64,000 nt of DNA from Armatimonadetes bacterium Uphvl-Ar1. GTDB lineage: Bacteria > Armatimonadota > Fimbriimonadia > Fimbriimonadales > Fimbriimonadaceae. Made by a program: the position numbers and the translations under genes. This document shows positions 7,862 to 10,075 of this stretch, piece after piece; position 1 is the stretch's first letter, and each line of letters starts with the position of its first letter. Under the pieces are notes generated by a model. It had not been told where the DNA came from, did not search any database, and worked only from the letters and a program-made list of their open reading frames with translations. The stretch lies in NCBI GenBank assembly GCA_002162075.1, contig CP021423.1:2604001-2668000 (forward strand), in the 5' to 3' direction.

Positions 7862-8551
7862 TCACCAAGCTGGCTTATCCGTTCCCACTGGCTGGAAGAA
7901 GAAACATCCACTGGTCATCTTCTCCGGCACCATTTTGAAATCGGTAGGCTCGGATTCTTTCCCCGTCATTTCACTCAAGAGTTTGTTCAACTCCGTAAGC
8001 ATTGCCCTGCTGTAACCCGGCCAAACCTTCTGAATCACACCCTCTCGGTCAAAAAGATAAACGTAAACTGATTGCTTCGCACCAAAAGCTCGAAATACTT
8101 TGTCATCGGTACTCGAAAGAATCGGATATGGCACCATGAAGTCCGTCTTGAACTTCTTCCCCCCTTTAGCATCGACATCAATAATCCCAAAAAACTTCAC
8201 TGCTGGCCCGTAGTACAGCGACATACTGGTCCAAAAGGGTTGAGATTCAATTGAGCATGGACATCCATCTTTAGTCATCACCAAAACCGATGGTTGACCA
8301 CCTATCAAACCACTTGAACCCATCTCAATCCCCTCACTATCCACCAATGAAAATTCTGGCCCTTTTTTACCAATAAAGGATTCCGCGTTGACCTCCATTT
8401 CTTTGGTCACGGGATGCCGTGGTACCTCTTGGATGTTGTACGAATTGCTCTCAACCCCGACCGCCATTGGTTCCCGATTCATGATTACAAGAGACACACC
8501 GACTAAACCAACCGTCAAAATTCCAACAACAATCGGGAGCGGCTTCACCAT
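7862..8551 (-). CDS. Membrane-anchored thioredoxin-fold/redoxin protein
   Basis: 229 residues: an N-terminal membrane anchor or uncleaved signal (about residues 5-25), then an AhpC/TSA-like redoxin fold starting 'GKKGPEFSLVDSEG'. A cysteine pair in 'KDGCPCSIESQPFW' (about residues 95-97) follows the first beta strand, where redoxins carry their active cysteine. It probably acts as a periplasmic peroxiredoxin or thiol reductase. It is divergent from the selenoprotein gene 61 bases away, which is also a thioredoxin-fold redox protein, so the two may share a redox function. Confidence 0.7.
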   Translation of the reverse strand: MVKPLPIVVGILTVGLVGVSLVIMNREPMAVGVESNSYNIQEVPRHPVTKEMEVNAESFIGKKGPEFSLVDSEGIEMGSSGLIGGQPSVLVMTKDGCPCSIESQPFWTSMSLYYGPAVKFFGIIDVDAKGGKKFKTDFMVPYPILSSTDDKVFRAFGAKQSVYVYLFDREGVIQKVWPGYSRAMLTELNKLLSEMTGKESEPTDFKMVPEKMTSGCFFFQPVGTDKPAW

Positions 8552-8612
8552 GACTTAATTCTACGTTGCAATCGCAGCTCGCAGTGGGGATGAAACCTGC
8601 CAAAATAGGGCC

Positions 8613-8849
8613 ATGAACAAACTCACTATCGAATATTGCGTCCGCTGAAACTACATGCCTCACGCCGCCAGGTTGGCGGAACTCTTTCTCACCGAATTCA
8701 ATCTCGAAACCGAGTACATCAAAGGCGATCACGGAATCCTTGAAGTCAAACACGGCGACGAAATCGTCTACACAAATCGCCAAAATCTCGGCTACAAACC
8801 CACAAATGAAGAAGCCCGAGCCGCGATGCAAGCCCACCTCAATAGGTAA
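8613..8849 (+). CDS. SelW/Rdx-type selenoprotein, in-frame TGA = selenocysteine
   Basis: A 78-residue protein if the TGA at 8646-8648 is read as selenocysteine (codon 12). It begins 'MNKLTIEYCVRU', then 'NYMPHAARLAELFLTEF', giving the CxxU redox motif of the SelT/SelW/SelH (Rdx) thioredoxin-fold family right after the first beta strand. The tyrosine, proline and alanine positions after U also match the family. The rest ('GILEVKHGDEIVYTNRQ') fits its beta-beta-alpha end. A G+C-rich hairpin at the position expected for a bacterial SECIS lies downstream of the TGA. The family is thought to be a small thiol/selenol oxidoreductase. A standard gene caller would start at 8655 and lose the active site. 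It requires selA, selB, selC and selD elsewhere in the genome; none are in this window. Confidence 0.85.
8646..8680 (+). promoter_or_regulatory. Putative bacterial SECIS element of the SelW-like gene
   Basis: After the TGA (8646-8648) the RNA can form a five-pair all-G/C stem, 8665-8669 (CCGCC) with 8675-8679 (GGCGG), closing an AGGUU loop. The loop has a G in its first two bases and begins 22 bases after the UGA, within the spacing known for bacterial SECIS elements, which recruit SelB. The fold was seen by eye; no energy was computed. Confidence 0.6.
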
Positions 8850-8923
8850 CAAAGCCCCGGTATCAAAAAAATCTGACACCCAATCCCTGCCTAAACGTAA
8901 TCATCCATAGGGCACCTACCATT

Positions 8924-10075
8924 ATGAAAGCCGGAAGCGTCATCCTCGTCGGTCTCGGATTGTTCGGCACTGTATTTGCCGCCAGTCTCCTCGCGTTTAA
9001 CTTTGCCAATCTCGGTGCGGTCAATTCCAAATCCCCTATCATCGTCAATACCAATTCGGCCCCAACCCTCGCCGTTCAAAACGCAGCCAAGGCCCTCCCC
9101 GATTTCACCGCCGCTGCTGAGCAGATCCTCCCGAGTATCGTCAGTATCACAACCCTTGCCGAAGGAGAAAACTGGTTCGGTGAGCGATTCGTCCAGCCCT
9201 CTGGTTCAGGCTCAGGAGTCGTCCTCAGCAAATCGGGACACATCGTCACCAATAATCACGTCGTCACTTCCGGAGGGCGTCGGATGGCCGACCGAATAAT
9301 CGTCAAGTTCAGCGACGGAGAAACATCTGAAGCCAAAGTCATTGGCACCGACCCCCGTTCCGATATCGCCGTTCTCAAAGTGGAGCGTAAGGATCTCACA
9401 CCGATCGCGGTCGGAGATTCGGAGGCTCTTAAGGTCGGTCAATGGGTCGTCGCCGCCGGAAATCCGCTCGGATTCGAACAAACCGTCAGTGTCGGAATAG
9501 TCTCCAGCAAGGGCCGACCCCTCAAAACCGACGACTACGCAATTTTTGTTGACGGCATTCAAACTGATGCCGCCATCAACCAAGGCAACTCCGGTGGTGC
9601 CCTCTGCGATGCCCAAGGTCGCCTTGTTGGGATCAACACCATGATCGCATCTACCGACCAGGGCAGCATCGGGATCGGTTTCGCCATCCCCGTCAACCGA
9701 GTACAAGAAGTCGTAGATGAAATCCTCAAATTCGGAGCCGCTCGATACGGTCGTATCGGGATCGCCGTTCGGTCTGATTCCAGCATTCTTGGTCTCAGCC
9801 AAATCCGGGATCGTCTCCGCCGCCAAGTAGGTGCCGAAAAAGACCCTCCCAGCCAAGGCGTTATCGTAAGTCAGGTCTACCAAGGCCCAGCTGCGGAAGC
9901 CGGAATTCGGCCCCTCGATGTCATCACCAAAATTGACAGCAAACCCATGTCCTCAACCGAAGACTATCAGGTTTTTATGGCAGACAAGAAGCCGGGGCAA
10001 ACCCTCAAAATCGAGTACTGGTCACGCGGCGAAACCCGATCAGCCAATCTCACATTAGTCGACGCGCAAATCTAA
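8924..10075 (+). CDS. htrA: HtrA/DegP-family periplasmic serine protease
   Basis: 383-residue trypsin-like protease with one PDZ domain. An N-terminal membrane segment (residues 4-30) targets it to the periplasm. The catalytic triad is visible: His112 in 'VTNNHVV', Asp147 in 'DPRSDIAVL' and Ser223 in 'QGNSGGAL'. The PDZ domain covers about residues 285-380 ('GVIVSQVYQGPAAEAGI'). The length and single PDZ resemble the DegS/HhoA group. These proteases remove or sense misfolded envelope proteins. The gene stands alone, 74 bases after the selenoprotein. Confidence 0.93.
   Translation: MKAGSVILVGLGLFGTVFAASLLAFNFANLGAVNSKSPIIVNTNSAPTLAVQNAAKALPDFTAAAEQILPSIVSITTLAEGENWFGERFVQPSGSGSGVVLSKSGHIVTNNHVVTSGGRRMADRIIVKFSDGETSEAKVIGTDPRSDIAVLKVERKDLTPIAVGDSEALKVGQWVVAAGNPLGFEQTVSVGIVSSKGRPLKTDDYAIFVDGIQTDAAINQGNSGGALCDAQGRLVGINTMIASTDQGSIGIGFAIPVNRVQEVVDEILKFGAARYGRIGIAVRSDSSILGLSQIRDRLRRQVGAEKDPPSQGVIVSQVYQGPAAEAGIRPLDVITKIDSKPMSSTEDYQVFMADKKPGQTLKIEYWSRGETRSANLTLVDAQI

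Follow-up and report, generated by a model that had tools for sequence, protein, structure and literature searches.

A SelW-like (Rdx family) gene from the Armatimonadota with a predicted selenocysteine codon and a coding-region SECIS-like hairpin

Introduction

SelW-like selenoproteins were first described from bacteria in 2005, in a Sargasso Sea set (PMC1088965), and together with SelD they are the most widespread selenoproteins in the GOS data (PMC2398784). According to a 2026 review, what these proteins do in the cell, the SELENOW-like ones among them, is in almost every case largely uncharacterised (PMC13188914). Published rules for the bacterial SECIS (bSECIS) describe a stem of 4-16 bp, a loop of 3-9 nt with a G in its first two positions, a spacing of 16-37 nt, and an MFE of -7.5 or lower (PMC13188914). 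In the open-access literature searched, we found no relevant report of selenocysteine or a selenoprotein in Armatimonadetes/Armatimonadota, which is weak evidence of absence, and the phylum is not mentioned in the main text of a survey of 5,200 genomes (PMC5029168).

Here we describe a locus at positions 8613-8849 of a 64,000-nucleotide stretch of the genome of Armatimonadetes bacterium Uphvl-Ar1 (the window, that is, the whole stretch of DNA analysed). Based on sequence comparison, it almost certainly represents a SelW-like (Rdx family) selenoprotein gene, with selenocysteine (Sec) predicted to be inserted at an in-frame TGA. The locus shares with bacterial SelW-like genes (PF10262; PMC1088965, PMC2398784) a CxxU motif with one Sec, membership in the Rdx/SelW family, and, downstream of the in-frame UGA, a bSECIS whose apical loop is small and contains G; it differs in its host lineage, Armatimonadota (Fimbriimonadaceae). 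SelW-like proteins are an established bacterial selenoprotein family, and the Armatimonadota gene adds a member, not a new kind. Within the literature searched, it brings into selenium-utilisation surveys a phylum whose Sec system appears to be intact.

Results and Discussion

Reading frame and active-site codon

The frame that opens at ATG 8613 contains one in-frame TGA and, if this codon is read through, encodes 78 amino acids, beginning MNKLTIEYCVRUNYMPHAARL... (Table 1). As the original prediction stated, the TGA falls exactly at the U of a CxxU motif (EYCVRU), which we confirmed as codon 12, and the frame stays open to a normal stop, the TAA at 8847-8849. Translation with table 11 instead gives an open reading frame of 64 amino acids that starts at ATG 8655 and does not contain the CxxU motif, just as had been anticipated for standard annotation. 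The start at 8655 is an annotation gap, and standard annotation would truncate the gene at its active site.

Table 1. Positions of the selW-like gene, its elements, and its neighbours in the window
Feature	Position	Strand	Basis
selW-like gene (Rdx family)	8613..8849	+	PF10262 match; 78 aa with TGA as selenocysteine (predicted); near-identical gene in G006
CxxU redox motif, codons 9-12 (TGC GTC CGC TGA)	8637..8648	+	C9 and U12 invariant in 30 aligned homologues; present in 8 further TGA forms
In-frame TGA, predicted selenocysteine codon 12	8646..8648	+	TGA in 38/39 phylum Rdx matches; remaining one TGC
Standard-code ORF, 64 aa, internal ATG, without active site	8655..8849	+	Table-11 reading
Bacterial SECIS-like hairpin, 6-bp stem, 3-nt loop GGU (8671-8673)	8665..8679	+	Fold and covariation
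AhpC/TSA-redoxin family protein, divergent neighbour	7862..8551	-	Adjoins selW within genus only
HtrA/DegP-like trypsin-PDZ protease, downstream neighbour	8924..10075	+	Adjoins selW within genus only

The table-11 frame could in principle be the true gene, with ATG 8655 as the start, a product without CxxU, and the upstream frame serving as a 5' leader. We consider this very improbable, as homologues keep the pattern I-x-[YF]-C-x-x-U over codons 1-12, a near relative has synonymous changes at codons 5 and 10 (G006), no Met aligns with 8655 in many homologues, and the fold would lose strand 1.

Family, fold, and likely function

The full reading matches the Pfam Rdx family (PF10262) with 40.9 bits (E 2.4e-10), above the gathering cut-off of 22.6. 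It also gives near full-length matches to two NCBIfam models, TIGR02174 (CXXU_selWTH; 32.1 bits against a curated cut-off of 34.2) and NF041051 (SelTWH_Campy; 55.1 bits against a curated cut-off of 88). Because both of these scores lie below the curated cut-offs, routine name-based annotation may miss the gene.

We modeled the structure with AlphaFold2 on an alignment of 30 sequences, with the TGA entered as Cys, and obtained a model with a pLDDT of 95.6 and a pTM of 0.85. The best solved structures found with this model by Foldseek were 3dex, 2ojl, 2fa8, 2oka, 2obk, and 2p0g, followed by MIEN1 and mouse SelW. The PF10262 match and the resemblance of the model to solved SelW-family structures both place the protein among the SelW/Rdx proteins. 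SAV_2001 of Streptomyces avermitilis (3dex), 2fa8, 2p0g, and 2ojl have the same fold, belong to the same family, and are the best sequence and structure matches; in the alignments, the residue of 3dex and 2p0g that aligns with Sec of the Armatimonadota protein is Cys. Mouse SELENOW (2npb) shares the SelW fold (Foldseek E 4.1e-4) but is remote, with a TM of 0.61 by query length. The native mouse protein has a CxxU motif.

In the AlphaFold2 model, Cys9 is the last residue of strand 1 (residues 4-9) and the turn leading into helix 1 (residues 15-29) holds Sec12, which is where a redox CxxU pair would be expected to sit. Alignment and model agree that the CxxC/CxxU motif follows strand 1 of a thioredoxin-like fold. 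Based on this model, the product would most likely be a thiol/selenol oxidoreductase.

We also considered the flanking genes as hints to function and dropped them, as the AhpC/TSA-redoxin and HtrA genes stand beside selW only within the genus. Because we found the arrangement in the genus alone, we claim no functional link.

Conservation of the TGA among relatives

Rdx matches were found in 30 of 101 genomes centred on the source genome. All 30 contain exactly one TGA, and in the loci read out it occupies the CxxU position in every case. Across 291 genomes of the phylum there were 39 Rdx matches, 38 with a TGA, every one of them at this same CxxU position. The sole Cys form found in the phylum, in genome G158 (L049; G158:C22:51752-51976), reads CVPC with a TGC codon. 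Aligned at codon 12, the phylum homologues therefore have either U or, in this single case, Cys, and none has neither. The nearest relative, G006 of the same genus, has a near-identical gene that differs by 11 codon changes that are synonymous and 3 that are not. The TGA is also present in Rdx matches of other phyla, in Krumholzibacteriia (L067:3001-3213) and Mariniblastus (L069:3001-3219). By direct reading, a similar hairpin follows in the DNA of both, and in L069 it lies at the same place with a different sequence (CUGCAA GGC UUGCAG).

These comparisons bear on whether the locus is a pseudogene or contains a sequencing error, with a Cys codon (TGC/TGT) accidentally mutated to TGA. The TGA is one base from TGC or TGT, and the hairpin, judged from the single sequence, does not reach significance (see below), both of which would suit such an accident. 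However, 38 genomes from across the phylum share the TGA at this codon, as do the two loci of other phyla, and the changes in G006 are mostly synonymous. We give an accident next to no probability and regard it as already refuted, because the TGA is conserved across genera.

SECIS-like hairpin and its covariation

Downstream of the TGA, positions 8665-8670 pair with 8674-8679 (CCGCCA/UGGCGG) around a GGU loop at 8671-8673, with a folding energy of -9.9 kcal/mol. The original prediction described a G+C-only hairpin 22 bases downstream, with a G early in the loop. A hairpin is indeed there, and G is the first base of the loop; the 22 nt, however, is the distance from the TGA to the loop, while the foot of the hairpin lies at 16 nt, and the top pair is A-U, which leaves the five below it as G+C pairs. 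The fold agrees with all of the published bSECIS rules. Unlike the eukaryotic SECIS, which lies in the 3'-UTR, the Armatimonadota selW hairpin lies inside the coding region.

Taken as a single sequence, the hairpin is no stronger than shuffles (z -0.74, 45 nt). A mechanical filter (TGA, open frame, Cys at +/-3, and hairpin) yielded six candidates in the window, including selW, and an Rfam scan of 8400-9000 gave no match. The hairpin alone proves little; homology and covariation, both drawn from comparison of sequences, lift the predicted element above chance. The other window candidates from the filter were 5642+, 19141+, 57440-, 47470-, and 41725-.

Over 30 sequences, 96.7% of pair cells were paired, and neither this percentage nor the covariation score was reached by any of 500 shuffles. 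RNAalifold recovered the same six pairs; the top pair is missing in four homologues. Among the 38 TGA forms, all six pairs form in 30 and five in the other 8, and the first loop base is G in all 38. The second pair from the foot (8666/8678) links the third base of codon 18 to that of codon 22, codons that mostly encode Ala; it takes six types (CG, TA, GC, AT, TG, and GT) and is paired in 38 of 38. In G106 (L053), pairing is kept with a different stem sequence and different amino acids. When synonymous codons were redrawn, with codon frequencies taken solely from long open frames in the window, the mean number of pairs was 4.18 +/- 0.13, compared with 5.79 observed; in this test, as in the shuffle and co-occurrence tests, sequences were treated as independent and relatedness was ignored.

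The Cys form in G158 (L049) has only 2 of the 6 stem pairs, the hairpin having been lost. It is a natural control, with no SECIS-like hairpin predicted at that place where the codon is TGC. The family provides a clean case of a predicted SECIS within the coding region: synonymous positions covary, and the Cys homologue no longer has the hairpin.

Selenocysteine machinery

The in-frame TGA had been taken to imply a working selenocysteine system in the organism, and a search of the genome (2,985,450 bases in one contig, 98.8% complete) found selA, selB, selC, and selD. SelA scored 430.2 bits, SelB 351.7 bits, and SelD 347.7 bits, the last with an in-frame TGA of its own (CAGUASKLG). A single tRNA-Sec scored 73.9 bits, above the gathering score of 47, and ARAGORN likewise calls a tRNA-SeC with anticodon TCA (UCA). 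Among relatives, SelB was above cut-off in 24 of 24 near-complete genomes with a TGA-containing Rdx gene, compared with 30 of 57 without an Rdx match (Fisher p 6.6e-6, with relatives counted as if independent). A full SelB was missing from three TGA-Rdx genomes, whose completeness is 73-88%.

The presence of in-frame TGA codons in both selW and selD would also fit a general reassignment or read-through of TGA in this organism, without Sec. We judge this to be extremely unlikely given the complete selABCD set and a covarying hairpin that follows the TGA and is absent from the Cys form. Moreover, several homologous selW genes end in TGA, so TGA is still a stop codon in those relatives.

Under the selenoprotein reading, the ribosome would start at ATG 8613, and at UGA 8646 it would receive Sec-tRNA-Sec from SelB, which would bind the hairpin that this mRNA forms at 8665-8679. 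SelA would make the Sec-tRNA-Sec, using selenophosphate supplied by SelD. Translation would then run on to the TAA at 8847. For the product we predict the thioredoxin-like fold of SelW proteins, in which the strand-helix turn carries Cys9 and Sec12. It would most likely act as a thiol/selenol oxidoreductase via a Cys-Sec selenenylsulfide.

For the selenouridine synthase SelU, the genome gave only a partial match of 25 bits against a cut-off of 219.75. The best genome match for formate dehydrogenase (L058; G000:C1:1703586-1705631) is below the formate dehydrogenase cut-off and has no in-frame TGA; it is a formate dehydrogenase/nitrate reductase-like molybdoenzyme with the motif NGRLCMVSA, which we take to be the Cys form. 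Tentatively, and with rather less than even confidence, we suggest that in this lineage the whole Sec apparatus may be kept mainly for SelD and SelW, without the usual Sec-formate dehydrogenase or selenouridine trait. If so, SelW would be the main Sec customer in an otherwise minimal selenoproteome.

Another genome of the same genus, G001 (99% complete), has SelB and a TGA-containing selD and gave no Rdx match, so a genome can keep the Sec system without having selW. The selD of the source genome (L010:1501-2424; G000:C1:2772333-2773256) is a selenoprotein gene too, in which the TGA is followed by a strong hairpin (AAUUGGG-CCCGA-CCCAAUU). In most relatives, selD likewise contains a TGA.
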